Below are positions 1,908-53,933 of a DNA stretch of 64,000 bases, piece by piece. Both the position numbers and the translations under genes were made by a program. The stretch is taken from positions 1-64,000 of the IMG/VR virus record IMGVR_UViG_3300032323_001214; one strand, 5' to 3'. Positions within the stretch are counted from its first letter, which is position 1. Every line of letters begins with the position of its first letter. The notes beneath the pieces were generated by a model. That model made no database searches, was not told where the DNA came from, and was given only the letters and a program-made list of their open reading frames with translations. The stretch comes from a virus.

Positions 1908-2549
1908 TCAAACTTGTGGTTTCCCTAAAAAGTTTTCACGTGTATAGCAGATATCTGAATACTTTTGTATACTAGATTCTAATAAATCGGATAACTTTTT
2001 TTCATCAGTAATCTTGCCTCTGATAACTCCTAGAATTTTAAAATTATCTGGATCAAAGCTTGCGCCATGCGAACAAGACTGATTGTTAAAGCAGAAGGTA
2101 TTAGTTGTCTCCGGTAGTGTAATGTAACGCTTTTTGTCTCCGTAGTCAATAAAAAAGGACTTCTTATCTTGTGCTATCACAAAGCGGAATCTAAAGTCTA
2201 GCCTCGTATCATACATTAGTTTGTCTTGATGAGGCGGAACATATTGAATATTTGACCACAAACTAATTGACTCTACTTCTAATGGGAGGTAGGAATTCAG
2301 TATCTCAACATCATCCTTTAAAAAGTCTGACATATCAATAAATGTACCCACATGCATCAACATTTCGGGTGTAAAAGTAGGTCCTTTATAACATGTTAGT
2401 CCTTTCCAAAACACCGGAAGATTTGGGTCGGTTGGTTTTGATATATTGCTAGCATGTTCTTTGTACAGTTCAACGATACTGTCACGGTTCTTTAATGGTA
2501 AATTTGGAATGTTTAAAGGTGAGTACAAAACATTATCAAAGTTTATCAT
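1908..2549 (-). CDS. Putative 2OG-Fe(II) oxygenase-like protein
   Basis: 213 aa. An iron-binding triad typical of double-stranded beta-helix dioxygenases is visible: H107-x-D109 in PPHQDK and a distal H161 in CSHGASFD, with R177 (LGVIRG) placed to bind 2-oxoglutarate. Such enzymes hydroxylate proteins or small molecules using Fe(II), O2 and 2-oxoglutarate; the substrate is unknown. It is the last gene of a minus-strand run starting with the ATP-grasp gene, and its start overlaps the preceding small gene by 14 nt. The stop codon lies in a weak ACCACA/TGTGGT inverted repeat (1893-1920). Overall homology is inferred from motif order. Confidence 0.6.
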   Translation of the reverse strand: MINFDNVLYSPLNIPNLPLKNRDSIVELYKEHASNISKPTDPNLPVFWKGLTCYKGPTFTPEMLMHVGTFIDMSDFLKDDVEILNSYLPLEVESISLWSNIQYVPPHQDKLMYDTRLDFRFRFVIAQDKKSFFIDYGDKKRYITLPETTNTFCFNNQSCSHGASFDPDNFKILGVIRGKITDEKKLSDLLESSIQKYSDICYTRENFLGKPQV

Positions 2550-2793
2550 GGCTATATCTTTCTTTTACAGACTCTTTGAACGAATTTACAAATGCATGAA
2601 TGATGGGTGCAAATCTTTTGTTTTGTTCAAGACTTACTTCTTCGCATAAATTCATACAATCATCTAATAATAGTTGAGCAAACGCTTCTATTTCTGTTTC
2701 TCTATTTACTAGTTCTGTGCTCAGGTCATTGACTACAGACCAGCTGGTGCTTGACATTGCTTGATCGGCTAATTTTTTTAAAGTATCGTTCAT
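2536..2793 (-). CDS. Small hypothetical helical protein (85 aa)
   Basis: 85 aa beginning MNDTLKKLADQA. It is predicted to be almost all helix, with a charged amphipathic pattern, and has no membrane segment or metal motif. The 14-nt overlap with the following 2OG-like gene and the absence of a gap to the preceding one indicate a co-translated unit. I do not recognise the family; short proteins of this kind are common in T4-like phages of environmental bacteria. Confidence 0.6.
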   Translation of the reverse strand: MNDTLKKLADQAMSSTSWSVVNDLSTELVNRETEIEAFAQLLLDDCMNLCEEVSLEQNKRFAPIIHAFVNSFKESVKERYSHDKL

Positions 2794-3381
2794 TTATCTA
2801 TCTATAATTATGTTTTGTGTTTTAAGGTGCTCTACTGCTTCATCCCATGTTAAATCATGTATACTTGTTCTTGCACTTATACACCATCTGGATTCATTGC
2901 CAACTGATAGAGAGTGCGGATAATCTGTTCTTACTAAAGTAGGTTCATTTGGCATTATTGAACATCTATCTATTTCTACCAAGTCTTTTATAGGCCAACT
3001 TAAAATTTTATTATTTCCAGGGACTAATTTAATATTTTTCTCACCCGGCGGAAGATCATACCATATCATCTCGCTTCCTGCACCCCCGAAGACCAAGTTA
3101 AAACCAAAATGTGTGCTTTGCGTAGGTGCCCCGACTTCACTGACCAAATCTACATGTGCTTCAGTGTCTACTAAATTAGCCTCTCTATAAAATACAACTG
3201 ATCTATTTATGGGTAATGCAACATCATTCATATATTTTACCCAATCAGTCTCAAAAATTTTATCTGCTTTAAATGACCATACCCCAACGTATCCGGAAAA
3301 TTGTCGGGGGTCAGGAAATTGCCAATCTTTTGATATTGCATTTTCTATATTTAAATTTAGTCTATACCAGCATTTTCTCAT
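2794..3381 (-). CDS. Putative 2OG-Fe(II) oxygenase-like protein
   Basis: 195 aa from the second ATG, chosen because GGGGA lies 5 nt before it; the upstream ATG at 3393 would add four residues. H76-x-D78 (EAHVDLV) and distal H156 in YPHSLSV, followed by R165 and R171 (SRWCISAR), form the facial triad plus 2OG-binding Arg pattern of the Fe(II)/2OG dioxygenase fold. The substrate is unknown. The gene follows the asparagine-synthase-like gene with 1 nt between them, so the two products probably act in the same process. Confidence 0.6.
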   Translation of the reverse strand: MRKCWYRLNLNIENAISKDWQFPDPRQFSGYVGVWSFKADKIFETDWVKYMNDVALPINRSVVFYREANLVDTEAHVDLVSEVGAPTQSTHFGFNLVFGGAGSEMIWYDLPPGEKNIKLVPGNNKILSWPIKDLVEIDRCSIMPNEPTLVRTDYPHSLSVGNESRWCISARTSIHDLTWDEAVEHLKTQNIIIDR

Positions 3382-3382
3382 A

Positions 3383-4306
3383 TTATTCCCCATATGAAAA
3401 TGATTTTTTAGAAAAATGATCTATGTTTTTAATTAATCTATTAACAACTGTATACTTTGTATGTTCGTGTAATTTTAAATTAATTTGATTAATTTCTTCA
3501 GTTCTATATTTTTCGTGGCCTGTAAATTTATCACGTTTGGTCATTTTATAAAAATGGAACACTTTGTACTTTAATATAGGGCTATTAAAATTCCAAAAGC
3601 CAAGTTCATTGTATTCTTTATTTGGATCAATGTTTTTAGTAAAATCATTAACATAGTTAATATATAGGTTTCCTGTTTCCCTAAAGAAATTAGAGCAACC
3701 ATCCATATTATTCATTGCTAAAAACTTATTCCATGAATTTTGAAACTCATAGTCTGCATGATAGACTATCCCGTTATATCTATAAATTTGTGGATCACCG
3801 TGGCCAATTATTGGATAGTAATTTTTATCATACATCATTTCCATCAATCGTGTAATCTGTGACATAGTAACATAACTTAAATTATGTTTCACACAATAAT
3901 CAAAACACTCTTGTGAACGATACCATTTAATAGTTTCTAAATTAATAATCTCTATGTTTAAATTATGCGTGTTAACAAAGTCATCAACAAATACAGTATC
4001 ACATTTGTTCTGATCTACATCATATACTGCATGTATGCAATGAAAATCTTCACCTGATTTGTAACCCAATTCTAAAAACGCATTTAGAATAATTTCACTG
4101 TCAATACCACCTGAATAAAATATACAAGGTGTTCTATTAACTAGTTTTGCCTTATTGACTAGTTGATTAACTGTTTCTAATAACCCTTCATGTATTCCTA
4201 CTGTAGGTACTTTGTAGTCGTAATGTACACAAAATTTATCATCTACACTTTTACGTGTAAAAATGTTCTTGTCATCATTATAGAAACATTGATAAAATTT
4301 ATGCAT
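3383..4306 (-). CDS. Asparagine-synthase-like PP-loop amide ligase
   Basis: 307 aa from the ATG at 4306 (an upstream in-frame ATG at 4333 lacks a ribosome-binding site and lies deeper in the preceding gene). The ATP-pyrophosphatase P-loop SGGIDS is at residues 65-70 after a hydrophobic strand (CIFY), as in the synthetase domain of AsnB and beta-lactam synthetase. The N-terminal glutaminase domain with its nucleophilic Cys2 is absent, so ammonia or an amine must come from elsewhere or the enzyme only adenylates. It overlaps the ATP-grasp gene by 8 nt and is paralogous to the gene at 8238-9158. Confidence 0.7.
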   Translation of the reverse strand: MHKFYQCFYNDDKNIFTRKSVDDKFCVHYDYKVPTVGIHEGLLETVNQLVNKAKLVNRTPCIFYSGGIDSEIILNAFLELGYKSGEDFHCIHAVYDVDQNKCDTVFVDDFVNTHNLNIEIINLETIKWYRSQECFDYCVKHNLSYVTMSQITRLMEMMYDKNYYPIIGHGDPQIYRYNGIVYHADYEFQNSWNKFLAMNNMDGCSNFFRETGNLYINYVNDFTKNIDPNKEYNELGFWNFNSPILKYKVFHFYKMTKRDKFTGHEKYRTEEINQINLKLHEHTKYTVVNRLIKNIDHFSKKSFSYGE

Positions 4307-5432
4307 CACATAACCTATAAATTTCTTGTTCATCTCTACGTAGTTGTTCTTGGTCAGTATTGATTAGAATAACTTCCCCTGGGATAGATGCTAGTGTTTT
4401 CGTGTTGACAGGCAACGTTTCAAAGAATGAATAGTGTTGGAACAACATACTGAATGATGGTAATTTGCTAAACTCCTGCCATGGAAACTCAGAAAATTTT
4501 CTTTCCCTATGGTTGAATAAATTAATTCGTTCCATATTTGCTTTTTTATTATATATCGGTGTCAAATCATCAAACTTTGATTCATTTCTTAAAAAAGCAT
4601 CGACTGTTAATTGTATTTGAGGTTGTGTTAATATTTTAAATGATGATGCGTAATCCAAATGACCATGCGTTCTGAAGTTAGCTTCAATTAATTTGAGTGC
4701 TCCATCCCCTATCATAATTTCAGTATGACATGCTCCGGTGACGTAATTTACTTTGTCTAACATATTACAAGTATATTCATATAAACGTTTAATTAATTCT
4801 TCATTTCCAACATAGTCTAGTAATATAGTTTTTTCTCTCCAAAATCCATTAGCTTTAGCATAAGTCCAGACAGAAACTAACTTATGTTTACCATTCATTG
4901 ACACTGTATCAACTACATACTCATTGCCTTTTATATATGGCATTATGAACATATCCGTTGTATCTACATCATCCATTGATTCTACTACGCTAATTCTGTC
5001 ATAACCACCGTGACTGATTTTAGGTTTAACTACACACTTTTTATATCGATTTAAAAACTCATCAAAGTTTGTATCAGATGCAGGTTCTCCTATAGCACAT
5101 AGTACGTCATATCTATTTGTTATTATTTTGTTATTGACACCGAGACCTAATAGTTCGTTCAAATGATTACTCAATACTTGTCCATTATCTGATCCGGGAA
5201 AACAGCATATGATATCATCTTTATACTTTGCTAAATCAGCAAGGATTTGATTGTCTGAATCGTAAATCAGACATGTCTCATATATGGTATTGTTTAGGGA
5301 TTTATAGAGTTTTTGAAATACGTGTTTGGATGAGTATATATTAATTACACGATACCCGCGATTAACAAACTCGTATGCCAGACTGTTTCCAGCAAGTACT
5401 ACGTCAATTATCAATGCATATTGTGTTTTCAT
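4299..5432 (-). CDS. ATP-grasp ligase
   Basis: 377 aa with the ATP-grasp order: an N-terminal Rossmann-like preATP domain, nucleotide-binding VVKPKISHGGYDR (K136, K138), the hinge segment YIKGNEYVVD (E171) and the metal-binding end HTEIMI...LKLIEANFRTHG (E238, E250, N252). ATP-grasp enzymes activate a carboxylate as acyl phosphate and join it to an amine or thiol; this one resembles the L-amino-acid ligase / carbamoyl-phosphate-synthase-like group. A perfect TATAAATA late promoter ends 6 nt before the ATG and there is no ribosome-binding site, so the mRNA is probably leaderless. It is co-transcribed with the PP-loop ligase, suggesting joint amide or peptide bond formation. Confidence 0.8.
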   Translation of the reverse strand: MKTQYALIIDVVLAGNSLAYEFVNRGYRVINIYSSKHVFQKLYKSLNNTIYETCLIYDSDNQILADLAKYKDDIICCFPGSDNGQVLSNHLNELLGLGVNNKIITNRYDVLCAIGEPASDTNFDEFLNRYKKCVVKPKISHGGYDRISVVESMDDVDTTDMFIMPYIKGNEYVVDTVSMNGKHKLVSVWTYAKANGFWREKTILLDYVGNEELIKRLYEYTCNMLDKVNYVTGACHTEIMIGDGALKLIEANFRTHGHLDYASSFKILTQPQIQLTVDAFLRNESKFDDLTPIYNKKANMERINLFNHRERKFSEFPWQEFSKLPSFSMLFQHYSFFETLPVNTKTLASIPGEVILINTDQEQLRRDEQEIYRLCDA

Positions 5433-5438
5433 AGCAAC

Positions 5439-5446
5439 TATTTATA
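5439..5446 (-). promoter_or_regulatory. T4-type late promoter TATAAATA
   Basis: Perfect TATAAATA on the minus strand with a 6-nt spacer to the ATP-grasp start codon at 5432. No Shine-Dalgarno sequence fits in between. Confidence 0.75.
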
Positions 5447-5468
5447 GAAATAATTGCATGAAAAAAAA

Positions 5469-5858
5469 TTATGAGAATAGCTGATTTGCAGTAACGTAGT
5501 CTGTTTCATTTATAATGTCAATAGTTTCTTGTTCGACTACAGTTAAGATAATACCAGTAGCGTCTAAAAATTTAGCTCTGGCCTTTAAAAAAGTGGTATG
5601 TGCTGGTGAGGTATTCCAAGCGTCAAACCTATCTTTGTCAGCATAATATGTTAAGGTAATTTTATCTAAACTATTTGCATCTTCTACCCAAACATAATTA
5701 GTTACACAGTTTAAACTCTCTATTTCAGGTCTTGCCTCAATAACAGCTATTGCATATTCCGTTTCTGCATCAGTTGTCTCTGGTAATGACAAATAATCCA
5801 TTGGTTTTCTATAGGTTACCTCACCGTTTGCTGTCCATTTACACGCTACTAAATACAT
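5469..5858 (-). CDS. Hypothetical protein, possibly ABM-like fold
   Basis: 129 aa. The start is set by AAGGAG at 5865-5870, six bases before the ATG; an in-frame ATG at 5879 lies upstream of this site and is rejected. The segment LTYYADKDRFDAWNTSPAH resembles the dimeric alpha-beta barrel of antibiotic-biosynthesis-monooxygenase-like proteins, but I cannot confirm it. It has a GATAAATA late promoter at 5883-5890 with a normal leader, unlike its neighbours. It sits between a desaturase and the ATP-grasp ligase, which suggests a role in the same pathway. Confidence 0.6.
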   Translation of the reverse strand: MYLVACKWTANGEVTYRKPMDYLSLPETTDAETEYAIAVIEARPEIESLNCVTNYVWVEDANSLDKITLTYYADKDRFDAWNTSPAHTTFLKARAKFLDATGIILTVVEQETIDIINETDYVTANQLFS

Positions 5859-5882
5859 AAATAACTCCTTATTATACAAGAG

Positions 5883-5890
5883 TATTTATC
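5883..5890 (-). promoter_or_regulatory. Late promoter GATAAATA
   Basis: GATAAATA on the minus strand, 24 nt before the start at 5858. The leader carries AAGGAG. Confidence 0.65.
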
Positions 5891-5892
5891 TT

Positions 5893-6681
5893 TTATTCAG
5901 CATCTTTAAATACTCTTATGAACCATCCTGAAGGATCAATTTCCCACCATTTGATCCCAAAATCATAATTACCAGGACGACCATGATGATTATTATGCCA
6001 ACATTCACCTAGTACGAGTGGCCATAACCATATGACATTTTTACTGTTATCTCGGGTCACAAAGTTAGTATATCCGTAATTTGAATGATTTAGGCAATTT
6101 GTTAGATTGTACGTAATCAGCGTGACCAATGCAGGAAGTATGCTAAAAAATAACAAGAATTCAATACTTATTAATCCAAATATAATGTTTGATGTTAGCC
6201 AAATTTTAGTATAATGAGTACTAAACCACATTATGTCTTTATTACGCATCGTGTCAACAGCATATCTAAAACTAATAGCATCCGATTTAATCCTAAACAT
6301 CCACAAAAATATGCTATGCCAAAATCCGTGAATAGGGCTGTGAGGATCTGTTATTGTATCTGGCTTTCTATGATGGTATCCCCTATGTAGTGCTACCCAC
6401 CAAATAGGACTTCCCTGCCCACTAAGTGTTGAAGCATATAACATTAAAATCTCTTTCCACCTAGCTGCCTTAAAAGATTTATGACTAAAATATCGATGTA
6501 GCCCTGCAGTTACTCCGATGATGTTAATAAAGAAGTAACCCAAACATACCAACAATAACTTATACCAAGTAAATTCAATTATCAACGATCCAGCTGCTAT
6601 AGATCCTAATATTATAATAGGCAACGTAATTATAAGAAGACTAGGATTTTCTTTAAGATTTTTAAGAATAGGGTTGAACAT
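5893..6681 (-). CDS. Membrane fatty-acid desaturase (delta-9 type)
   Basis: 262 aa. The three histidine boxes of the membrane diiron desaturases are complete: HRYFSH (62-67), HRGYHH (99-104) and HNNHH (229-233), plus NCLNHS near 196. Hydrophobic helices surround boxes one and two, as in stearoyl-CoA/acyl-lipid delta-9 desaturases, though the length is at the short bacterial end. It introduces a double bond into an acyl chain using O2 and electrons from a host reductase. CATAAATA ends 5 nt before the ATG with no ribosome-binding site. One of four desaturases in the window. Confidence 0.88.
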   Translation of the reverse strand: MFNPILKNLKENPSLLIITLPIIILGSIAAGSLIIEFTWYKLLLVCLGYFFINIIGVTAGLHRYFSHKSFKAARWKEILMLYASTLSGQGSPIWWVALHRGYHHRKPDTITDPHSPIHGFWHSIFLWMFRIKSDAISFRYAVDTMRNKDIMWFSTHYTKIWLTSNIIFGLISIEFLLFFSILPALVTLITYNLTNCLNHSNYGYTNFVTRDNSKNVIWLWPLVLGECWHNNHHGRPGNYDFGIKWWEIDPSGWFIRVFKDAE

Positions 6682-6685
6682 TACA

Positions 6686-7372
6686 CTATTTATGCTTTAA
6701 CGGCGGGTCATTCTTAATTCTATGTGCATAATGTAAATCGAGTGACATTAGCATTACGGGACGTATAAAACGTTTTGGAATAATATTCTTAAATGCCTTA
6801 AATTTATAATTATCAATGTCTTCCTGACTATTGAATATCTTTTCAATTATGAAATCATACTTAACTGCAGGTATGGTTTTAGAAAATATATTTAATGCAT
6901 AGTCTTTTGCTTGTGATGATTCTGTAATTCTTAAAGCTTTTTTAGTGGCTTTTATAACTATAAAACCCTTAGTATATTGCTGACCTTCAAATTGTTCTAG
7001 CATCAACTTTTCAATAGAAAAGAAATCATCATGTGGGGATTTCCAGGAACTACTAGTTTTATACCATAATCCTACTACCCAATAGGGTAATACATCTTCT
7101 GCCTTTTTTCTATGCCAAGCAATTTCAATTTTGTATCCTACCATTATTTCATCTATTTCTCCATCAGTAAATCTAGCTGATACTACAAAATCTTTGGGAG
7201 AAACTTCTAAGAATAGTTGTCGTAACCAATCAGCAAACTTCTTAATATCTTCATAGTAATATATAGGGTTAGGAGCAATAGATTCATGTTCTACATATTG
7301 TATCAATATTTGATTAAAATGCTCAACGTCAGCTAAATCATTGGGGTCAAGCAATTTGTAGGTGGTAGTCAT
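6686..7372 (-). CDS. Hypothetical protein, possibly GNAT-related
   Basis: 228 aa, no signal peptide or membrane segment. It has alternating strands and helices, with a central stretch (EIDEIMVGYKIEIAW) and later GFIVIKATKKALRI that resemble the strands of a GNAT acyltransferase, but the acetyl-CoA pyrophosphate loop is not clear. The C-terminal third is basic. It is directly followed by a desaturase, the same arrangement as the GNAT-like gene at 9937-10509 next to desaturases, which suggests an acyl-handling role. I saw no clear promoter or strong ribosome-binding site before the ATG. Confidence 0.5.
   Translation of the reverse strand: MTTTYKLLDPNDLADVEHFNQILIQYVEHESIAPNPIYYYEDIKKFADWLRQLFLEVSPKDFVVSARFTDGEIDEIMVGYKIEIAWHRKKAEDVLPYWVVGLWYKTSSSWKSPHDDFFSIEKLMLEQFEGQQYTKGFIVIKATKKALRITESSQAKDYALNIFSKTIPAVKYDFIIEKIFNSQEDIDNYKFKAFKNIIPKRFIRPVMLMSLDLHYAHRIKNDPPLKHK
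6687..6694 (-). promoter_or_regulatory. Late promoter CATAAATA
   Basis: On the minus strand, 5-nt spacer to the desaturase ATG at 6681. It overlaps the end of the preceding gene. Confidence 0.7.
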
Positions 7373-7397
7373 ATTATTTTACAGTGTATAGTGGCAG

Positions 7398-7405
7398 TAT
7401 AAATA
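7398..7405 (+). promoter_or_regulatory. Late promoter TATAAATA
   Basis: Perfect TATAAATA on the plus strand, 4-nt spacer to the ATG of the Rieske oxygenase gene at 7410. Confidence 0.75.
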
Positions 7406-7409
7406 TTTA

Positions 7410-8246
7410 ATGTTTACATCTACCCCTAAAATATTTGCTCATGTATCATCTGTAAATAAAGGTAACTTTGTATTACCTGAAGTTATACTCAACAAAGCTG
7501 ACAACGGAGTAAACTTATTTCATAGATTTTGCCCACATAGAATGTATCCACTACATAATACCGGAGAACATGTAGAAAATATCGTATGTAAATTTCACAA
7601 CTTTGAATGGGATAAAGATGGTAATCCTTTAAATAATCCTAAAAAGTTAAAATGCGGAACCGCTGAAGTGGGACGATCCGGATTAGTATTTAAAGATTTT
7701 ATTGAACCTGATCATCAATGGGTAGATGATTTAGCAAAAGAAACAGAATTGGTGTATAGTCATTCTTTTCAAGGAGAAAGTAAAGGAAGCTGGCTATGGT
7801 TAATGGATGCTGAAGCAGATTTGTTACATTTATACAAAGGTGGTATACATCCTTTTTTATCTCAGCAAATAGAGCTAAATGATATTGTACTTGACCAGGG
7901 CGATGGATGGATACTTCAACATCACCCAAATGGCTGGTGGTTATATATATTCCCCTTTACTTTTGTAGAATACAGCAGACCAGGATGTGTTATGGTTAAT
8001 ACAGTTATACCTGATAATATAGATACTGAGTATGGATTTAAATGGATTACACAATTTTACTATAGCAAAGATATACATCCCAATACTCGTATGATATTTG
8101 AAACACTAGAAACTGTCTTTAAAGAAGATGTTGCTACAGCAGAATTACAAAAGGGAAATTACTTTCCGTTAACGAAGGCGATGAACCGATATGAGGATCA
8201 TTGCGTATATTTTGGCAATTGGGTTAAAAATAATAAATTAAAATAA
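7410..8246 (+). CDS. Rieske non-heme iron oxygenase
   Basis: 278 aa. The [2Fe-2S] Rieske motif is C41-P-H43 and C60-K-F-H63 with 16 residues between the pairs. The catalytic domain shows D137-x-x-H140 and H147 (DLLHLYKGGIH), and E239-D240 in FKEDVATAE, matching the mononuclear-iron 2-His-1-carboxylate site of ring-hydroxylating and related oxygenases. Typical alpha subunits exceed 350 aa, so this is a compact version. It would need host ferredoxin/reductase. It is the only plus-strand gene in this part of the block, its 3' end overlaps the convergent PP-loop gene by 9 nt, and a TATAAATA 4 nt before the ATG predicts a leaderless late mRNA. Confidence 0.8.
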   Translation: MFTSTPKIFAHVSSVNKGNFVLPEVILNKADNGVNLFHRFCPHRMYPLHNTGEHVENIVCKFHNFEWDKDGNPLNNPKKLKCGTAEVGRSGLVFKDFIEPDHQWVDDLAKETELVYSHSFQGESKGSWLWLMDAEADLLHLYKGGIHPFLSQQIELNDIVLDQGDGWILQHHPNGWWLYIFPFTFVEYSRPGCVMVNTVIPDNIDTEYGFKWITQFYYSKDIHPNTRMIFETLETVFKEDVATAELQKGNYFPLTKAMNRYEDHCVYFGNWVKNNKLK

Positions 8247-9158
8247 CTCAGTTAACTCATTGTAGGTGAACCAGTATTCGTTTCCTTCTCCTACTACTGC
8301 GGTCATATAATCTTGCATTTTATTAATATATTCTGGATATACTCCGGTAAAGTTATCCCCTTCATAACCTGTTAATTTATGTTTATATTTAATATCAGGC
8401 CATATCTCTGAATGTATGGGAGTTCTACTAGTCCAACAACTTAATTTGCCCGGTAATTTATCATTTAGTAAATCTTGTATTAATGGTAATTCATTAAATG
8501 CTTTAATCAGATTGGGGTTAAATTCATACCAATCACATACATTTGGTCTACCAATAGATTGTAGATACATAGATGAATTATGATTGGCTTCATTTAAAGG
8601 GAATATCCAATTAGATTTTTGGCTATAATCTCTTTGTAATACACGTGACCAATATGGTTCAGCATCTCCCATTACCGGTATGTTGTCTATATAATCAAAG
8701 AATTTTATATGAGGTAAACGTCCGGCTCTGATGCAACCGCTCTTTTGAAATACATCATATGCTTCAGCCTCAAAGAATTTTTCTAAATTAAAATCTATAA
8801 TTTTATAGGGAATATTTAAACATGTGGCAATTTCTACTGCTGATGTTACATCTCGGTGGTTTATGTTATTTTCATATTTGAAAATATATGTATTATGTGT
8901 TATCTTTAAATCTTTAAAAGTACGTACTACTACTTCGCTATCAATACCACCAGATAATAATACATCAAATGTACCCACATGGTAATCTCTCATCAACCTA
9001 GCGTTATTATACAATTCTTCTTTATAGGATTTTACAGGCTTGGTTATAGTTGAAGTGTTTATGTTTAATGTATAAACATCATCTTTGCTTTTACGTAATC
9101 CAAAAGGTACATCATTAAAGCTCCATGTTAACCAACCATTAAAGGTAGACATGCTCAT
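8238..9158 (-). CDS. Asparagine-synthase-like PP-loop amide ligase, paralogue 2
   Basis: 306 aa. P-loop SGGIDS at residues 69-74 preceded by the strand FDVLL, with the same layout as the gene at 3383-4306 and again no glutaminase domain. The N-terminus MSMSTFNGWLTWSFN is a short beta region in place of the missing amidotransferase domain. The enzyme should adenylate a carboxylate for attack by an amine. Start and upstream stop overlap by four bases (ATGA), so it is translationally coupled to the desaturase at 9155-9928. A second ATG two codons later is also possible. Confidence 0.68.
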   Translation of the reverse strand: MSMSTFNGWLTWSFNDVPFGLRKSKDDVYTLNINTSTITKPVKSYKEELYNNARLMRDYHVGTFDVLLSGGIDSEVVVRTFKDLKITHNTYIFKYENNINHRDVTSAVEIATCLNIPYKIIDFNLEKFFEAEAYDVFQKSGCIRAGRLPHIKFFDYIDNIPVMGDAEPYWSRVLQRDYSQKSNWIFPLNEANHNSSMYLQSIGRPNVCDWYEFNPNLIKAFNELPLIQDLLNDKLPGKLSCWTSRTPIHSEIWPDIKYKHKLTGYEGDNFTGVYPEYINKMQDYMTAVVGEGNEYWFTYNELTELF

Positions 9159-9928
9159 GTTGTCTTAATTAATTTAATAATGAGTCCGGATATATCTAAT
9201 TCCCACCATTGTTTTCTAAAGGTATAATCTCTAGGAAATCTATGATGATTGTTATGCCATGCTTCACCCCAACTAGGTATAGACCATAACCAATTATTTG
9301 ATGATTGGTCATTAAGATTATATGAACGATATCCACCTAACCAATTTGGTTTATGTCCTACATAGTTAACGACATTACTCATAAGTCCTGTAATTAATGC
9401 AGGGGTCCAATGAAGGAATATCATTAACCAAAAACCACCAATGGCAAACAATATTATACTATATAAAGCAATTATTGCAAAGTAATAACGATGTAGGAAC
9501 TGTTGGAATGTATCAGTCACTAATTTCCTCATTCTCCATTTAGTATCATTGTTTACTTCATTAACATAATCAAGTGAGAATATCTTTATACCTTTATATA
9601 AAGGGCTATGCGGGTCATCGGGTTTATCACTTTTTAAATGATGATTAATGTGAATTGCTACCCAAGCAAGTGGGCTTCCTGTGCCAGCAAAACATCCTAA
9701 TATTGAAAATAATTTAGTAAATAATGGGTTTGTTTTATAGCTACGATGTGTTAATTGTCTATGATATGTGACTACTATTCCTAAACATCCATACAAAAAA
9801 TAACCCAATAGAATTAATAATATTGCGTTTAATGATACTCCATATACAATAGTGGCAAGTATCGTTCCTATCAATGATAGTATCATAAAAGCTTGGGCGC
9901 CGCGGGTACTTGATGCTAGGTATTTCAT
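9155..9928 (-). CDS. Membrane fatty-acid desaturase, paralogue 2
   Basis: 257 aa from the ATG at 9928. The ATG at 9934 is rejected because its A is the last base of a GATAAATA promoter; using 9928 leaves a 5-nt spacer as at neighbouring genes. Histidine boxes: HRQLTH (about 56-61), HINHH (about 93-97) and WHNNHH near residue 223. Hydrophobic helices flank box one. It is transcribed together with the PP-loop gene that follows, so the acyl product and the amide ligase may act in one pathway. Confidence 0.86.
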   Translation of the reverse strand: MKYLASSTRGAQAFMILSLIGTILATIVYGVSLNAILLILLGYFLYGCLGIVVTYHRQLTHRSYKTNPLFTKLFSILGCFAGTGSPLAWVAIHINHHLKSDKPDDPHSPLYKGIKIFSLDYVNEVNNDTKWRMRKLVTDTFQQFLHRYYFAIIALYSIILFAIGGFWLMIFLHWTPALITGLMSNVVNYVGHKPNWLGGYRSYNLNDQSSNNWLWSIPSWGEAWHNNHHRFPRDYTFRKQWWELDISGLIIKLIKTT

Positions 9929-9933
9929 TAACA

Positions 9934-9941
9934 TATTTATC
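9934..9941 (-). promoter_or_regulatory. Late promoter GATAAATA
   Basis: Overlaps the first candidate ATG of the desaturase gene. The spacer to the second ATG (9928) is 5 nt. Confidence 0.6.
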
Positions 9942-10509
9942 TAAAATTAGGTCGCAACACTCTTTTTTTTATGATTACGTTATCTGGTTTTATTTCTTTG
10001 CCTAATAATTTCCAATATAAATCAACTGTTGGCTTGGTATTTGCAGGAACAATGTCTAATTGAATACAATCATATCTACCCGTCGTAATATATTTGTTTT
10101 TTCTATATTGACTCTCATAAACGGATGCAATTCTTTCACTAACAGAATAGTAATATTCGTAGTATTTCTTTGATTCCGCTATGTGGAAGGCTTCTTTAAT
10201 TAACAATCCTATTTCTTCTTGGTTAAAAGAAAAATATTTTGTAAACTTTGTGGTATATAATGCACTAATCACCCAGAATCTACCTCGGGTTTTGTTTTCC
10301 ATTAACACGATCCCTAACCAGCTAACTATTTTGCCATCTTCTATACAGCCTAATGCATAGTAATTATCATTCTCAATAAAATATTTTGTACAGATTTCTA
10401 TTAATGCTTCTTCTGACAGTGGTTTGGATCCGCCTACTCTGGGCCGTAGTTTGGCTATACCCAAACAATCAGCCAAATGAACATCACCTAATAATCTTTC
10501 TACTTTCAT
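9937..10509 (-). CDS. GNAT-like acyltransferase, probable
   Basis: 190 aa. The strand-helix order and segments such as YYALGCIEDGKIVSWLGIVL (strands 2-4) and a following helix (EEIGLLIKEAFHIAESKKY) fit the GNAT N-acyltransferase fold, although a textbook Q/R-x-x-G-x-G/A CoA loop is not evident. The C-terminus is basic. It lies between two desaturases and overlaps the upstream desaturase by four bases (ATGA type), indicating tight co-expression. A role in transferring an acyl chain to an amine is plausible but inferred from context. Confidence 0.5.
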   Translation of the reverse strand: MKVERLLGDVHLADCLGIAKLRPRVGGSKPLSEEALIEICTKYFIENDNYYALGCIEDGKIVSWLGIVLMENKTRGRFWVISALYTTKFTKYFSFNQEEIGLLIKEAFHIAESKKYYEYYYSVSERIASVYESQYRKNKYITTGRYDCIQLDIVPANTKPTVDLYWKLLGKEIKPDNVIIKKRVLRPNFR

Positions 10510-11267
10510 TTATTGCTTTTTAATAGTGAAATTATTAGTGACAGTGGGTCAAACTCAAATGATTTAACCTTAGTAGATATTCTGTCAGCGTGAGCATGGT
10601 GATTATTATGCCATGCATCCCCTAAAATAAATGGCCACAAATATATATTGTTTGTACTGTGGTCTCTAGTCTCATAGTTTCTGTGCCCGTACATATGAGC
10701 AAAGTAATTAAATGCTATTTGTGAGATACTTACTAAAAATACAGGTAATGCCCACATATAAAAAATTAAATTTACATTTATTAGTCCCAGCAATACTATA
10801 TATGTTGCTATTAATAGCATGTAATACTTATCTATATTAATATGTGCAGGTGTCAATAATTCTTTCACAATAAAATAGTTAATAGGTTTGGTGTCATCAT
10901 ATATTGGTCTAAAACCTATAAATTTAAAAGTGGTATAGTGAGGACTATGAGGGTCTTTTTCAGTATCGCTTGTCGCATGGTGTAATCTATGAATATAAAC
11001 CCAACCAATTGGACTTCCCCTACCTGCTAATACAGCAAATATAGTAAAGAACCATTTAACTACAGAATGTAATTTAAAGCTCTTATGACTATAATATCTA
11101 TGTAACATCATACTTACTCCAAAAATACTATAACAATAAAAGGTAACAATAGCAGTAATAGTGTATATCCAAGATATATCCACAAAAAACATACCAAATA
11201 ATATAGTCACTAAGGATAATATTTGTAGCATGAAAAGTGATTTAGGAGTAGCAGATAAATGTTTCAT
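10506..11267 (-). CDS. Membrane fatty-acid desaturase, paralogue 3
   Basis: 253 aa with all three histidine boxes: HRYYSH (near 57), HRLHH (near 93) followed by DTEKDPHSP, and WHNNHH near residue 218. Several hydrophobic helices are present before box one and in the middle, typical of the membrane FADS family. Gene ends overlap on both sides (four bases each), so it is an internal member of a polycistronic run from 12336 down to 8238. It probably acts on acyl-CoA, acyl-ACP or lipid acyl chains; regiospecificity cannot be told. Confidence 0.86.
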   Translation of the reverse strand: MKHLSATPKSLFMLQILSLVTILFGMFFVDISWIYTITAIVTFYCYSIFGVSMMLHRYYSHKSFKLHSVVKWFFTIFAVLAGRGSPIGWVYIHRLHHATSDTEKDPHSPHYTTFKFIGFRPIYDDTKPINYFIVKELLTPAHINIDKYYMLLIATYIVLLGLINVNLIFYMWALPVFLVSISQIAFNYFAHMYGHRNYETRDHSTNNIYLWPFILGDAWHNNHHAHADRISTKVKSFEFDPLSLIISLLKSNK

Positions 11268-11743
11268 AATGTAATTAACCCTTTGTGTATTAAGTGTGTT
11301 TTTATTGTGTCAAAAGTTATAAAATGATTAACATGTATGTTAAGCAAATATCTAGTATGAACAGTGGAGTTGTTCCTTACATTATGGGGTAATGCAGTGT
11401 TTATTAAACAAGGAACATCAGTAGAATAAGGTATGTCATATTCTATATTATCTATTATCATTTTTCCTATATACTCTGGTCGTTGTTCAGTCAATAATTG
11501 ATTTATTGCACAATTTCTTGTGTTATCTATATGGAACTTATACTCCCATTCAGGTGGGGTTTTATATACACCTACCTGCAGGTCTAAATCATAATAATCA
11601 CATATCATAAGGTTTAACTCTTTTGGAACAGTTGCACGAAACAACTGATTGAATGTTGTCTTATAATTTAAAGAATTATAAATTTCTTTTAATTCACTTA
11701 GACACACTGGTGATTCATTTAATAATATCCAACCTTTATTCAT
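11264..11743 (-). CDS. Small 2OG-Fe(II) oxygenase-like protein
   Basis: 159 aa. KFHIDN supplies His-x-Asp, and LPHNVRNN followed by TRYLLNI supplies the distal His and a possible 2OG-binding Arg, the same signature as the larger neighbour at 11749-12336. At 159 aa it covers only the core double-stranded beta-helix. It overlaps the following desaturase by four bases. Whether it is an enzyme or a catalytically silent partner of the neighbouring protein cannot be decided. Confidence 0.5.
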   Translation of the reverse strand: MNKGWILLNESPVCLSELKEIYNSLNYKTTFNQLFRATVPKELNLMICDYYDLDLQVGVYKTPPEWEYKFHIDNTRNCAINQLLTEQRPEYIGKMIIDNIEYDIPYSTDVPCLINTALPHNVRNNSTVHTRYLLNIHVNHFITFDTIKTHLIHKGLITL

Positions 11744-11748
11744 ATAAT

Positions 11749-12336
11749 TTACTTGCCTAATAATAGATCACTGGTATCTATAACGTCTTCTAATTTTCTA
11801 AAGAGAGTTTTATCTAGCGGCCATCTTACAGTAAACATAACTCTATACTCGTCTGAATCATTGCGCACACTATGTAGTATTGAGTTATTCATTACATATG
11901 GACGAATGACTTCTATTTCTTCTCCTATAAGTTTTAGTTTAGCCTGATCTTTAACTAGCCAAGCAGATAGATAACCATCAGGGGAAGTAGCGTATATATT
12001 ATCTTTTGGGGTATCATAATAACAGTGATATGTATTCTGTGTACCAATGATTGGAATATTAATACCAAACGGCGAGGTTGGATCAACACCGTCTATATGT
12101 GCCTCAAGTGATGTATGCGGTGGGGTAATATAATATCGAAATATTCTAATAGGAGCTTTGACTTTTGGCATAAGCCATGTCATAAATTTGGGACAATGCT
12201 CTGTCATATACGTAGCAGAGTACGAAAAAGCATGAGTACCGACCACTGCTTTATAATCTCGGTCTATTGCATTCAATAATTCAACTTGGATTTCTTCCAA
12301 ATTTGGAATAGTAAATGGTATAGCTAATTCATTCAT
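11749..12336 (-). CDS. 2OG-Fe(II) oxygenase-like protein
   Basis: 195 aa. The strand FRYYITPPHTSLEAHIDG carries the His-x-Asp pair, followed by GINIPIIG and later ILHSVRNDSDEYRVMFTVRW with the distal His and Arg. It is clearly paralogous to the plus-strand protein at 13348-13908 (RFYLTPP...PHIDG...GLNIPISG). It is the first gene of a six-gene minus-strand run and is read from a late promoter at 12342-12353 shared with the divergent GNAT gene. The spacer to the ATG is 5 or 9 nt, depending on which overlapping promoter copy is used, with no ribosome-binding site. Confidence 0.62.
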   Translation of the reverse strand: MNELAIPFTIPNLEEIQVELLNAIDRDYKAVVGTHAFSYSATYMTEHCPKFMTWLMPKVKAPIRIFRYYITPPHTSLEAHIDGVDPTSPFGINIPIIGTQNTYHCYYDTPKDNIYATSPDGYLSAWLVKDQAKLKLIGEEIEVIRPYVMNNSILHSVRNDSDEYRVMFTVRWPLDKTLFRKLEDVIDTSDLLLGK

Positions 12337-12345
12337 AGTTATATT

Positions 12346-12357
12346 TATTTATAAATA
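12346..12357. promoter_or_regulatory. Bidirectional late promoter (palindromic TATTTATAAATA)
   Basis: TATAAATA is present on the plus strand at 12350-12357 and on the minus strand at 12346-12353; the two share four bases of a palindrome. The plus copy lies 6 nt before the ATG at 12364. The minus copy lies 9 nt before the ATG at 12336, or 5 nt if the overlapping AATAAATA at 12342-12349 is used. Confidence 0.75.
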
Positions 12358-12363
12358 ATATCT

Positions 12364-12975
12364 ATGTATAATAAAACATACAATTCACTGAGCAAAAAAG
12401 AAAAAGATCATTTCTTTGAATATCTACAATCTATAAAAGCCACAAATACCCAAGCCTATACCAATATGTGGAATGATAATTGGATGAATGAGGTTCATAC
12501 GCTTCCCTATGTACTTGAAAAAACAGACAGATTTAACGAAATTAACGGTGAATTTCACATCATATACAATGATTCAGATATTGTCGCATGTGGTGGTGTA
12601 TATAGAAGTCACTTCAGCGAGTCAGTGGGTATAGGTGGTGTACGTACTTGGACTAACGACAAATATAGACACCAATCGTTGTTGCGTGATTTTTTGTTAC
12701 CACTGCACAAATCTTGGTGTATAGAACATAATATAAAAATGATTGTGTTGTCTTTTAATGAGTATAATAAGAATCTAATCCAGGTGTTTAAACGTAGAAG
12801 ATTTGGTGAACAAAAAGATCGGATCAACAGTAGACAACCTCATCATTTATTTTATAACGGAATGGGTGAACCAAAGTTTCCGGTTATAATTCAGCATACA
12901 AAACAATGGATAATTTATGAAAAATTAGATCCATCGTTTGACTTTGACTGGACTACCATCAAATGCAAACTCTAA
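12364..12975 (+). CDS. GNAT-family N-acyltransferase
   Basis: 203 aa. Central strand pair IVACGGVYR...VGIGGVRTW, then NDKYRHQSLLRDFLLPLH in the position of the CoA-binding loop and helix, and IKMIVLSFNEYNKNLIQVFKRRRF as the last strand and helix: a recognisable GNAT layout with R/H-Q-S replacing the usual Q-x-x-G-x-G. The acceptor is unknown. It starts the plus-strand run of the divergent pair and overlaps the next gene by 13 nt. A TATAAATA ends 6 nt before the ATG, so a leaderless mRNA is likely. Confidence 0.65.
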   Translation: MYNKTYNSLSKKEKDHFFEYLQSIKATNTQAYTNMWNDNWMNEVHTLPYVLEKTDRFNEINGEFHIIYNDSDIVACGGVYRSHFSESVGIGGVRTWTNDKYRHQSLLRDFLLPLHKSWCIEHNIKMIVLSFNEYNKNLIQVFKRRRFGEQKDRINSRQPHHLFYNGMGEPKFPVIIQHTKQWIIYEKLDPSFDFDWTTIKCKL

Positions 12976-13361
12976 AATATCATCATTTGTTAAATATATC
13001 TGTAAATCATTTTATAAAAAATATTGAGGTGATACCCAAATTACCTAAAAATACTGACATATTTGTATCTAAATGTGATACAAAATTATTTTTACATGAA
13101 GGTGTATATAGCAAACTCTCTGAATTAGATCGGTTATCTAGTCTAATGTTTTTTATGACACCCGAATCCGATAAAAAAAATATTCATGTTGATTATAAGA
13201 CAAACAACTTTACTTTGCTTAATGTTTTAAAGCCACACGGCATAGAAAATAAAAATACTGAAAAGGAAAAAATAGTGCTATCTATGGGATTCAAGAATCA
13301 TGCATACAGTACTATGAGAGAAATGCATTATAAAGGAGAGTTGCTAAATGGTGTTATATAA
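12963..13361 (+). CDS. Small 2OG-Fe(II) oxygenase-like protein
   Basis: 132 aa. NIHVDY gives His-x-Asp and LKPHGIEN followed by KIVLSMGF gives the distal His and last core strand, a minimal form of the same motif set as its neighbours. The candidate 2OG-binding Arg is not evident, so activity is doubtful. It overlaps both neighbours (13 and 14 nt), mirroring the short-plus-long pairing on the minus strand (11264 and 11749). Confidence 0.5.
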   Translation: MQTLKYHHLLNISVNHFIKNIEVIPKLPKNTDIFVSKCDTKLFLHEGVYSKLSELDRLSSLMFFMTPESDKKNIHVDYKTNNFTLLNVLKPHGIENKNTEKEKIVLSMGFKNHAYSTMREMHYKGELLNGVI

Positions 13362-13908
13362 AAAATTAAACGTTGACAACTTTGAACAAATGCGAGTAGA
13401 GTTAGAATTAGCAACAACTGACAGAGTTATACAAAATACAAGATACTGGGGAGAACCTTATAAATGGTTTAAAGAAAACGCACCAACGTTCTATAACTTT
13501 GTAGAAAGTAAAAGAAAAATTTCTACTAGATTTTGTAGATTTTATCTAACTCCCCCAAATAGTAGTCTGCAGCCACACATTGATGGCACCAGTTCTTATA
13601 GATCACCGATTGGATTAAATATCCCTATATCGGGTTATGAGGGTAGTACAATGGATTGGTATATTTGCCCGAATGATAATTTTGATGATGGACATCATGG
13701 ATTTGAAAATATCCCTGCTAGTAAAGTTATAGACTTTACTAAATTAGAAAAAATAGATTCAACTGTTATTGATTGTCCTACATTTGTTAGAACTGATGTT
13801 GTTCACGGGATCGATAATTACAAATATACTAATAGACTAGTACTAAGTATAAGATTTCCGTATACTAAAATATTTGGTCAAAAATTTGAAGATGTTTGGA
13901 AATTTTAA
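13348..13908 (+). CDS. 2OG-Fe(II) oxygenase-like protein
   Basis: 186 aa. RFYLTPPNSSLQPHIDG supplies His-x-Asp, followed by GLNIPISG; the distal part VVHGIDNYKYTNRLVLSIRF supplies the second His and an Arg. Paralogue of 11749-12336. AAAGGAG lies 9 nt upstream of the ATG inside the preceding gene. It ends just before a 10-bp inverted repeat that separates it from the convergent ahpD gene. Confidence 0.62.
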   Translation: MVLYKKLNVDNFEQMRVELELATTDRVIQNTRYWGEPYKWFKENAPTFYNFVESKRKISTRFCRFYLTPPNSSLQPHIDGTSSYRSPIGLNIPISGYEGSTMDWYICPNDNFDDGHHGFENIPASKVIDFTKLEKIDSTVIDCPTFVRTDVVHGIDNYKYTNRLVLSIRFPYTKIFGQKFEDVWKF

Positions 13909-13939: not shown

Positions 13940-14479
13940 TTAAAGTGATATTTTGCCAACAGCATTAATGACTGATGCAATACGACCAATAGCCATCAAC
14001 TCTTGTGTGGTCATGCCTTCTTTCTTGAGTGTATCATAGTGTGCTTTCACACAGAAATGACACTTACCGATAATACTTGCAGCTAGTGAGTACATTTCAA
14101 ATTTCTTTTTAGATACACCACCGTGCGTAGCATAAGCATTCATCCGCAATCCTGCAGGTAGACCCTTCATACCTTCATCACCTGCCATTTCAACAAATGG
14201 ATACCAGATGTTGTTTTGTGCCATCAATGATGCCGCTGTCTTGGCCGCTTCACGTTCTTTTTCTGCGGTAAACAAAGGACTGTTGTGTTCGATCTCAAAT
14301 GCTAAACCTCCGTTACCGGCTGCAAGTGCTGATGCATATGCAATAGCATGTGTATCTACTGGATCTAACCCTGAACGATTGATAACTGCATCGATGTTTA
14401 GTTTAATGTCTTTGGAGTGATCTGGGATACTATCTTTTACAGATTGTACCCAATCACCATTAATGGTGATTGGTTGCAT
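13940..14479 (-). CDS. ahpD: AhpD-type alkylhydroperoxidase
   Basis: 179 aa, the normal AhpD length. The active site E128...C140-H-F-C143...H147 (GKCHFCVKAH) is intact. AhpD uses this Cys pair to reduce peroxiredoxin AhpC or peroxides directly. The gene starts on the last base of ahpC's stop, so the two are translated together, as in bacterial ahpC-ahpD operons. The GC-richer codon usage of this pair compared with the accessory block suggests a bacterial origin (by eye only). Confidence 0.88.
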   Translation of the reverse strand: MQPITINGDWVQSVKDSIPDHSKDIKLNIDAVINRSGLDPVDTHAIAYASALAAGNGGLAFEIEHNSPLFTAEKEREAAKTAASLMAQNNIWYPFVEMAGDEGMKGLPAGLRMNAYATHGGVSKKKFEMYSLAASIIGKCHFCVKAHYDTLKKEGMTTQELMAIGRIASVINAVGKISL

Positions 14480-15018
14480 TATAGTGTTTCTCCACCAATA
14501 GCACGATTACATGGGCATAGTTCGCCAGTCTGTAATGCGTCAAGAATACGCAATGTTTCATCTGGGCTACGACCAACGTTCAAGTTATTAACTGTAACGT
14601 GCTGGATTTCATTGTTTGGATCAACGATGAATGTTGCACGAAGTGCGGCACCTGCTGGTGCATAGAATACACCTAATTGTTCAATCAAGCTCAACTCACC
14701 TCGCTGTGTGTCAGCAAACTGGTGATGTGTGATCTTCTTCAAGTCGGCGTGTGCATTTTGCCATGCTACTTTGCAGAACTCGTTGTCTGTGCTTCCTGTT
14801 AGCAATACTGCATCGCGGTCAGCAAAGTCTTGTGTCAACTTGTCGTATGCTACGATTTCTGTAGGGCAAACGAATGTAAAGTCTTTTGGATAGTAGACAA
14901 TTACCTTCCACTTGCCTTCAAAACTATTTTCTGTAATAGTGTAGAAAGCATCTTCTGGTTGTCCTGGCTTAACGCCTGTAACTGCGAATTTTTCTAATTT
15001 ATCTCCGACTGTTTTCAT
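14479..15018 (-). CDS. ahpC: Peroxiredoxin AhpC
   Basis: 179 aa 2-Cys peroxiredoxin. The peroxidatic Cys is C51 in DFTFVCPTE, with the usual conserved Pro and Thr around it; the C-terminal LCPCN has C168 and C170 as resolving candidates. It reduces H2O2 and organic peroxides. AAGGAG precedes the ATG. The leader contains a 17-bp palindrome (15053-15069) and an AATAAATA late-promoter-like element (15068-15075). It may protect the phage's iron and O2 enzymes during late infection. Confidence 0.92.
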   Translation of the reverse strand: MKTVGDKLEKFAVTGVKPGQPEDAFYTITENSFEGKWKVIVYYPKDFTFVCPTEIVAYDKLTQDFADRDAVLLTGSTDNEFCKVAWQNAHADLKKITHHQFADTQRGELSLIEQLGVFYAPAGAALRATFIVDPNNEIQHVTVNNLNVGRSPDETLRILDALQTGELCPCNRAIGGETL

Positions 15019-15091: not shown

Positions 15092-15394
15092 TTAATCTTC
15101 TGTAGGTATAAGACCGTTGCTATGTTTATCTGTGATTTTTTCAGTATCTTGAAATAAACGCTTCTCTTGCGCCGTCAGTTTGTCTTTGTGAGTTTTACGT
15201 GGGTTACCACACATCATACAACCGGGTTGACCGCAATCCATAGCGTGATGTTTAGCTAGACGATGCGGTTCTTTAATTGCTTTATCTTTATTTGTTAACC
15301 CGTGTGCTTTAGCAATTTTAATTTGCTTTTTGACTGCGGTTTCGTCACGATGACGGCGTTGTGAATTTAAAAATTTTGCAAGTTCATTGGCCAT
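15092..15394 (-). CDS. Conserved hypothetical zinc-type protein (100 aa)
   Basis: 100 aa, very basic N-terminal half (RRHRDET...KKQIKIAKAHG), then a cysteine cluster CGQPGCMMCGNPRKTHK that may bind a metal. I recognise the Cys-rich CGNPRK signature as common among proteobacterial and phage hypotheticals without an assigned function. It overlaps the iscU gene by 11 nt, suggesting a shared role or at least co-expression. Confidence 0.7.
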   Translation of the reverse strand: MANELAKFLNSQRRHRDETAVKKQIKIAKAHGLTNKDKAIKEPHRLAKHHAMDCGQPGCMMCGNPRKTHKDKLTAQEKRLFQDTEKITDKHSNGLIPTED

Positions 15395-15773
15395 GATGTT
15401 TTTCTTTATAATCGTTTACTGCGGCTTTGATGGCGTCTTCTGCGAGGATGCTACAGTGGATTTTGACTGGGGGGAGGCTGAGTTCGTCTGCGATTGTGCT
15501 GTTTTTAAGTGCTGATGCTTCATCCAATGTTTTACCCTTGACCCACTCTGTGACAAGACTTGAAGAAGCAATTGCCGACCCGCACCCATATGTTTTAAAT
15601 TTGGCATCTGTTATTAATCCTGTTTCTTTATCTACTTTAATACTTAATTTAAGGACGTCTCCACATGCCGGGGCTCCTACCATTCCTATACCTACATCAC
15701 TATCGTCTTTTGCAAAACTACCCACGTTGCGTGGATTTTCATAGTGGTCAATTACTGCCGCTGAATAAGACAT
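15384..15773 (-). CDS. iscU: Iron-sulfur cluster scaffold IscU
   Basis: 129 aa, the normal IscU length. All three cluster cysteines (C37 in APACGD, C64 in YGCGSA, C107 in IHCS) and the nearby D39 are present, and LPPVK (100-104), the HscA chaperone recognition motif, is intact. It would assemble [2Fe-2S] clusters with host IscS. In this genome the visible client is the Rieske oxygenase. Promoter ACTAAATA at 15793-15800 and AAAGGAG before the ATG give a conventional late mRNA. Confidence 0.93.
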   Translation of the reverse strand: MSYSAAVIDHYENPRNVGSFAKDDSDVGIGMVGAPACGDVLKLSIKVDKETGLITDAKFKTYGCGSAIASSSLVTEWVKGKTLDEASALKNSTIADELSLPPVKIHCSILAEDAIKAAVNDYKEKHHGQ

Positions 15774-53912: not shown

Positions 53913-53916
53913 TAGA

Positions 53917-53924: not shown

Positions 53925-53933
53925 CCCAATAAA

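Follow-up and report, generated by a model that had tools for sequence, protein, structure and literature searches.

The window analysed here covers the first 64 kb of an IMG/VR virus record (IMGVR_UViG_3300032323_001214, here G000) that is 249,606 bases long and in which the genes for the major capsid protein gp23, the portal gp20 and the prohead protease gp21 are T4-like. Between positions 1908 and 13908 it contains a block of genes encoding membrane desaturases, PP-loop and ATP-grasp ligases, GNAT-like acyltransferases, a Rieske oxygenase and 2-oxoglutarate (2OG) type oxygenases. This 12-kb block recurs in more than 100 other uncultivated phage contigs and, on the evidence of comparative sequence analysis, is a conserved and selected phage biosynthetic module. 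Since the module recurs so widely, the viruses that carry it probably have a small biosynthetic pathway of their own, active during infection. We tentatively suggest, with a confidence that falls just short of even, that desaturation of acyl chains, probably bound to acyl carrier protein (ACP), their coupling to amines and their oxidation yield a tailored acyl amide or aminolipid.

A conserved neighbourhood in uncultivated phage contigs

The block holds 18 open reading frames (ORFs), mostly abutting or overlapping (Table 1), and the overlaps described in an earlier note, made from the letters of the window, are borne out by the coordinates. Hidden Markov models (HMMs) of the module families gave 14 matches inside the block and 3, one of them weak, in the other 237 kb of the record, a count that leaves out the radical S-adenosylmethionine (SAM), FolE and QueD profiles. 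The clustering is therefore not due to chance, and the desaturases, ligases, oxygenases and acyltransferase-like proteins do stand together, as that note had proposed. Almost no module protein was recognised by PHROGs. The three desaturases, the Rieske oxygenase, the ATP-grasp ligase and one PP-loop protein reach or exceed the curated Pfam cut-offs; the second PP-loop protein and the 2OG proteins resembling Asp/Arg hydroxylases remain below them, yet contain the expected motifs.

Shared late promoters had also been proposed for the block. Four gene heads (5439, 7398, 12346 and 12350) have the motif TATAAATA 5-13 nt upstream, but the window contains 7 copies where 11.6 are expected by chance and none was found at the capsid genes, so that such promoters are not established.

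Three proteins, the Rieske oxygenase, desaturase C (desC) and the GNAT-like protein GNAT203, were used as baits in IMG/VR, whose records are fragments. The desC bait gave at least 583 relatives and the GNAT203 bait 122; the best 80 of each were taken, resulting in 42 non-redundant loci of at least 15 kb and 42 of at least 12 kb, respectively. These two sets describe the best matches and share contigs, being reciprocal and not independent. Around desC, two or more desaturases were present in 38 of the 42 loci, a PP-loop protein in 38, a 2OG protein in 40, a GNAT protein in 38 and the GNAT203 family in 36, the first four classes occurring together in 31. Around GNAT203, a desaturase and a 2OG protein were each present in 41 of 42 loci and a PP-loop protein in 36, the nearest desaturase lying at a median distance of 1.4 kb. 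The Rieske bait gave 37 loci, which after collapse at 90% identity together with other loci represent 30 lineages; in 26 of these a PP-loop gene is next to the Rieske gene, in 29 it is at most two genes away, and in 18 a desaturase is present in the locus. The common gene order is Rieske, PP2, desB, GNAT190, desC, 2OG, GNAT203. Moreover, the family medians of dN/dS between close pairs (0.07-0.17) indicate purifying selection. The homologues are thus not scattered singly: with the two reciprocal baits the neighbourhood proved conserved in more than 100 phage contigs.

Desaturases and acyl-carrier genes

All three desaturases of the block (desA, desB and desC) exceed the PF00487 cut-off, which agrees with the earlier description of three membrane desaturases; three clustered desaturases is also the number seen in polyyne cassettes. 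The desC family matches the stearoyl-CoA desaturase (SCD) 4ymk (E=2.5e-19), and desB matches the NCBIfam DesA family with E=8e-29, below the cut-off. In desC-family desaturases the three histidine boxes and an extra histidine (NxxxH) are invariant columns. The strict histidine pattern is complete in 124 of 172 distinct desaturases, and many of the others, desA included, deviate only in the spacing of box 2 (H-x3-HH, not H-x2-HH). The desaturases also have hydrophobic membrane segments, and a complete histidine site on a phage genome, by which phage lipid desaturases are defined, is present.

In the desaturase tree the core pair of most loci consists of one C-side (clades 0 or 2) and one B-side (clades 1 or 3) enzyme, placed in tandem and in the same relative order; desC had been a bait in this analysis and desB had not. 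Additional desaturases come from distinct clades and stand in colinear arrays (8-12-9-19-20 in loci L028 and L046, 8-13-18-21 in L066 and L104), which is what would be expected of non-redundant steps. The number of desaturases reaches ten in L028 and eight in L046.

Desaturases could serve membrane fluidity only, by adjusting host phospholipids, with the ligases and oxygenases as unrelated cargo of the same hypervariable region. The enzymes are SCD-like, and the desaturases of cyanophages and Arctic viruses have been proposed to be single membrane-fluidity genes, according to the passage of PMC7300359 that cites Roitman 2018. However, whichever of the two reciprocal baits is used, the desaturase pair is nearly always accompanied by the GNAT, PP-loop and 2OG families, and no fluidity role would call for arrays of 8-10 desaturases together with ACP and ketosynthase. 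We consider this explanation improbable.

Several relatives of the module possess acyl-carrier genes. An ACP of 72-90 aa with a DSL motif is encoded inside the modules of eight lineages (L012, L028, L048, L068, L075, L084, L116 and L117), often adjoining a protein of families GNAT8/33 and a desaturase; among seven of these proteins scanned with Pfam, six were above the PF00550 cut-off and that of L075 was just below it. A holo-ACP synthase (AcpS, PF01648) is present in L028, and AcpS-like homologues exist in L068, L048 and L012. Ketosynthases were found in L028, where Cys, His and His can be read at the expected motifs, and in L105, both next to desaturases. In the whole records of 30 relatives, ACP was found in 12, ketosynthase in 6 and an AMP-binding ligase (PF00501) in 2. 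One 10-kb stretch of L028 (178-9958) combines eight desaturases, ACP, ketosynthase, holo-ACP synthase, a RimK-like ATP-grasp protein and a GNAT-like protein. The occurrence of ACP, AcpS and ketosynthase in relatives favours acyl chains as the substrate and, among the products suggested in the earlier note, an acyl amide or a modified lipid.

The same genes would also suit a polyyne-like or polyene pathway, in which successive desaturases and acetylenases act on acyl-ACP to give a highly unsaturated acid or amide directed at the host or at competitors. Known cassettes are composed of ACP and desaturases (PMC8406139); L028 has ACP, AcpS and ketosynthase, and L028, L046, L066 and L104 have diverged colinear desaturase arrays. 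The window, however, holds only three clustered desaturases, and an ACP of the JamC type, present in 12 of the 30 records of relatives, was not found in G000. In addition, a fatty acyl-AMP ligase (PF00501, JamA type) was found neither in G000 nor in 28 of the 30 records, the rubredoxin motif was not found except in zinc-finger-like proteins, and no thioesterase was seen among the Pfam-scanned module proteins, although no dedicated thioesterase search was made. Such a pathway is in our view quite improbable.

Proposed amide formation and oxidation, and the candidate product

The two PP-loop proteins, PP1 and PP2, form one family by HMM (182 bits). In Foldseek the model of PP2 matched asparagine synthetase B (AsnB, 1ct9) with E=1e-6 and beta-lactam synthetase (1mbz) with a TM score of 0.53. 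PP2 shares with these enzymes the synthetase-domain fold and the SGGxDS PP-loop, but it is only about 13% identical to them and differs in the glutaminase domain: no N-terminal glutaminase domain was found in the 306-aa AlphaFold2 model, which has the synthetase-type fold only. The two PP-loop ligases first noticed are upheld, PP2 having the modelled fold and PP1 the SGGIDS motif. Identification of PP2 as QueC was rejected because the match is confined to positions 4-66 of the 210-position profile, a short PP-loop signature. A periplasmic solute-binding protein of the TctC type (family cl4; L041 3998-4885, and many loci) recurrently adjoins a long PP-loop ligase in the modules.

The ATP-grasp ligase, also named in the earlier note and placed above the PF02655 cut-off, matches the L-amino acid ligase 30vh (E=4e-10) as well as DdaF (E=2e-11) and PRK07206 (E=3e-40), the last two below their curated cut-offs. 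This resemblance to an L-amino acid ligase and to the dapdiamide synthase DdaF could indicate a small amino-acid or dipeptide antimetabolite, built from amino acids by the two kinds of ligase (ATP-grasp and PP-loop) and tailored by the desaturase, 2OG and Rieske enzymes; PF00487 desaturases are known from small-molecule clusters, as in rhizobitoxine and phaseolotoxin. Nevertheless the ATP-grasp enzyme is rare in the related loci, where one relative was found (L066 16394-17584), the presence of ACP, AcpS and ketosynthase in relatives speaks for acyl chains, and the benefit to a lytic phage is unclear. We give this explanation the same low standing as the polyyne-like pathway.

The model of GNAT203 has the GNAT fold according to AlphaFold2 and Foldseek, with the acyl-homoserine lactone synthase BjaI ranking only 49 among its structural matches. 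The canonical acetyl-CoA motif is kept in 1 of 55 distinct GNAT203 relatives, and this near loss suggests a donor other than acetyl-CoA or a different binding mode. The best profile matches of GNAT190 are GNAT structures, though weak ones, and homologues of p228, which aligns to the GNAT190 family, adjoin additional desaturases in L066 and L104; for both GNAT190 and p228 the function is assigned only weakly. The earlier count of up to three acyltransferase-like proteins agrees with these assignments. Acyl-ACP is a candidate donor, considering the fold of GNAT203 and the ACP genes adjoining GNAT8/33 proteins in relatives.

In the Rieske protein the cluster ligands (CxH...CxxH, 2Cys-2His) and the iron site (D137, H140, H147 and D240) are invariant in 16 relatives. 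The protein has the 2Cys-2His cluster and the 2His-1Asp iron site with bridging Asp of a Rieske oxygenase, and the match above the PF00355 cut-off confirms what had been read from the letters. Its top PDB match is a saxitoxin enzyme; this was not taken as kinship because the match is limited to the Rieske domain, and there to about 47 residues. Six 2OG-type proteins had been counted, which is generous by one: five have the complete HxD...H...R set (for oxygenase A the distal His and Arg were identified by visual reading of the sequence), and the sixth (12963-13361) is shortened and lacks the usual Arg. Catalytic residues are present in the Rieske protein, the desaturases and most of the 2OG proteins.

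PP-loop proteins and oxygenases could alternatively serve phage DNA hypermodification by extending a 7-deazaguanine base that FolE/QueD would make and DpdA would insert. QueD is encoded in 15 of 29 records with Rieske or PP2, including all six larger than 150 kb, a DpdA-like protein is present in G000 and six other records, and in the L016 group the neighbours are FolE-Rieske-PP-PP-PP-QueD-Rieske-QueE (L016 3864-12203). In G000 itself DpdA-like, FolE and QueD genes are found near the right end (239684-247760, equal to L049 10078-18154), where QueE and QueC were not recognised beside them. Against this role, QueD is 20-70 kb away from Rieske in the other large records, PP2 resembles QueC only over the short PP-loop signature, and the desaturases carry hydrophobic membrane segments. 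As a general role the DNA-modification link was rejected, being real in the L016 clade only, and we regard it as very improbable for the module. In view of that clade, base modification may be a second function of the Rieske/PP-loop pair.

A ribosomally synthesised and post-translationally modified peptide (RiPP) or lasso peptide, raised by the AsnB-like ligases, the ATP-grasp and radical-SAM proteins, was also discarded, as ACP and ketosynthase fit better; no precursor peptide was identified, although no systematic search was made. Elsewhere in G000 (108249-123998, L053) about eleven radical-SAM proteins are encoded in tandem, along with SGNH-like proteins; glycosyltransferase-like genes come before this array and a carbamoyltransferase-like gene comes after it. 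Radical-SAM genes related to this array adjoin the desaturase module in L082, L092 and L102.

The acyl amide or aminolipid pathway would proceed as follows. Long acyl chains would be drawn from host acyl-ACP or acyl lipids in the window phage, and from phage ACP in some relatives. The desC-desB pair, with additional desaturases where present, would desaturate them. GNAT-like N-acyltransferases and AsnB-like PP-loop or ATP-grasp ligases would form the amide bond between the chain and an amine or amino acid, and Rieske, 2OG and, in relatives, radical-SAM enzymes would oxidise the product. The resulting acyl amide, unsaturated and oxidised, would be an N-acyl amino acid or an aminolipid that forms within or at the membrane of the infected host. 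IscU would provide the Fe-S clusters, and AhpC/AhpD would dispose of peroxide. The acyl chemistry is suggested by the SCD-like desaturases together with ACP, AcpS and ketosynthase in relatives; amide formation by the AsnB/beta-lactam-synthetase-like fold of PP2, the L-amino-acid-ligase-like ATP-grasp protein and a GNAT fold without the usual acetyl-CoA motif; and oxidation by the invariant Rieske metal site. From these likenesses we infer the acyl substrate, the amide formation by GNAT and PP-loop proteins, the oxygenase tailoring and the use of host acyl-ACP or lipid by the window phage.

Several observations weigh against this pathway. ACP, ketosynthase and AMP-binding enzyme were not found in the whole G000 record, which is possibly incomplete. 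The GNAT8 assignment of GNAT190 is based on weak profiles, and Pfam recognised no LuxI/FeeM-type acyltransferase among 34 GNAT8/33/p228 members. PF00487 enzymes that act on amino acids exist, for example RtxC of rhizobitoxine, and the acyl-amide product and its substrate are both candidates. Moreover, 12 of the 30 Rieske lineages have Rieske and PP-loop genes with no desaturase in the locus, so the pair need not act on acyl chains; it may act on the head group rather than the chain.

Other features of the window are listed in Table 1. Eight tRNA genes are placed at its left end, and a perfect 18-nt inverted repeat with a 31-nt loop (1057-1123) lies between the tRNA array and the cluster. A gene resembling homing endonucleases (56343-56969) is located among the capsid-region genes.

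Table 1. Genes of the module and other features of the window
Feature	Position	Strand	Observations
2OG-type oxygenase A (family OG7)	1908..2549	-	HQD at residue 107; relatives in 44-56 related loci; no Pfam match
ORF, 85 aa	2536..2793	-	no relatives among related loci; probably outside module
2OG-type oxygenase B	2794..3393	-	HVD 80, H160, R169; relatives in 15-51 loci
PP-loop ligase 1 (PP1)	3383..4333	-	SGGIDS motif; PF01171 weak, below cut-off; TilS-N weak
ATP-grasp carboxylate-amine ligase	4299..5432	-	C-terminal half dapdiamide-synthase-like; PF02655 above cut-off
ORF, 136 aa, role unassigned	5469..5879	-	no relatives among related loci; may not belong to module
Desaturase A (desA), accessory clade	5893..6681	-	PF00487 E=3e-13; boxes HRYFSH, HRGYHH, NCLNH, HNNHH; tree clade 14
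GNAT-like protein 3 (p228)	6686..7372	-	hhalign to GNAT190 family: probability 90%, E=1.5e-6
Rieske non-haem iron oxygenase	7410..8246	+	PF00355 E=4e-8, above cut-off
PP-loop ligase 2 (PP2), 306 aa	8238..9158	-	AlphaFold2 pLDDT 93, pTM 0.91; just above QueC cut-off
Desaturase B (desB), core pair, clade 1	9155..9934	-	PF00487 E=1e-18; clade partner of desC
GNAT-like acyltransferase 2 (GNAT190, family GNAT8)	9937..10509	-	relatives in 36-51 loci, often beside ACP and desaturase
Desaturase C (desC), core pair, clade 0	10506..11267	-	PF00487 E=1e-12
2OG-type oxygenase p159 (family OG21)	11264..11743	-	HID 71, H120, R131; OG21 HMM 1e-7
2OG oxygenase C, Asp/Arg-hydroxylase-like	11749..12336	-	PF05118 E=0.003, below cut-off; HID 80, H155, R165
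GNAT-like acyltransferase 1 (GNAT203), module marker	12364..12975	+	AlphaFold2 pLDDT 92; Foldseek PaiA 1tiq E=6e-7
Shortened 2OG-type protein, possibly degenerate	12963..13361	+	HVD, no H...R at usual spacing; longer homologue in L088
2OG oxygenase D, paralogue of C	13348..13908	+	HID 77, H153, R163; 84% identical to L088 protein
AhpD-like and AhpC peroxiredoxin pair	13940..15018	-	PF02627, PF00578; in 18-21 related loci; likely support genes
IscU/NifU-N Fe-S scaffold	15384..15773	-	PF01592 E=6e-52; in 23 related loci; likely support gene
Fourth desaturase, separate clade	53202..53999	-	PF00487 E=4e-15; isolated, directly beside major capsid gene

Host, origin and comparison with known systems

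A PstS phosphate-binding homologue of the record (G000 132821-133825, L054 8821-9825) shares approximately 70-78% identity with freshwater Comamonadaceae proteins, those of Limnohabitans ranking highest, which suggests a Limnohabitans-like host within that group. A bacterial origin of the module is not supported, since the Rieske family was not found in GTDB genomes by a pattern scan and GNAT203 was not found in 399 Burkholderiales genomes, a scan in which no positive control responded. No match to Rieske, PP2 or GNAT203 was obtained among INPHARED phages.

No description of such a module was found in the open literature searched, subscription journals being outside its coverage. The earlier statement that no T4-like module of this kind is described holds to that extent, with the reservation that the pelagiphage Mosig EXVC030M (MT647606, Kyanoviridae) carries a divergent relative that is annotated and apparently unstudied, no study of its function having been found in the literature searched. 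Mosig encodes homologues of the desaturase (E=6e-47), GNAT203 (3e-9) and 2OG proteins, in a cluster with peroxiredoxin, FMN reductase and radical-SAM-like genes that adjoins the tail fibres. It differs from the module in having one short desaturase, and PP-loop and Rieske homologues were not found in the stretch examined. Freshwater pelagimyophages have been reported with SCD, fabF and a 2OG protein (PMC7029224). Phage desaturase genes and acyl-ACP pathways are already known separately, and it is their combination that was not found described. The bolder proposal is that aquatic T4-like phages, while infecting, use a virus-specific acyl-ACP pathway to make amide-linked acyl compounds of a new, highly unsaturated class, and that some lineages supply ACP, holo-ACP synthase and ketosynthase themselves, with as many as ten desaturases acting in sequence; it seems to us possible but unlikely. 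The module would offer a definite starting point in the search for a lipid or small molecule of phage origin; freshwater Comamonadaceae are the likely host group, and Mosig is a distant relative in culture.

The module agrees only in part with the definitions of polyyne pathways, aminolipid synthesis and N-acyl-amino-acid synthases. In bacterial aminolipid and N-acyl amino acid synthesis (OlsB/OlsC, FeeM) a GNAT-type N-acyltransferase is combined with a PF05118-like 2OG enzyme. The module likewise has a GNAT-type protein and a PF05118-like 2OG protein, with ACP beside GNAT in relatives, but it shows no Pfam match to known acyltransferase families and adds PP-loop ligases and a Rieske oxygenase. 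With the bacterial polyyne clusters (JamABC, Cay, Pgn), which contain multiple desaturases and ACP and also acyl-AMP ligase, thioesterase and rubredoxin (PMC8406139), it shares several membrane desaturases and, in relatives, ACP; the last three were not found in the scans described above, and PP-loop ligases, GNATs, Rieske and 2OG proteins are present instead.

As a rule, a phage auxiliary gene encodes one enzyme that strengthens a pathway already present in the host. A conserved module of several enzymes, with families that the searches of cellular genomes did not find, and in relatives with a carrier protein, its activating enzyme and a ketosynthase, would mean dedicated biosynthesis in many aquatic phages. 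The desaturases of cyanophages and Arctic viruses resemble those of the module in being virus-encoded, SCD-like membrane enzymes, but they are described as single auxiliary genes, whereas those of the module form an ordered pair within a multi-enzyme block.

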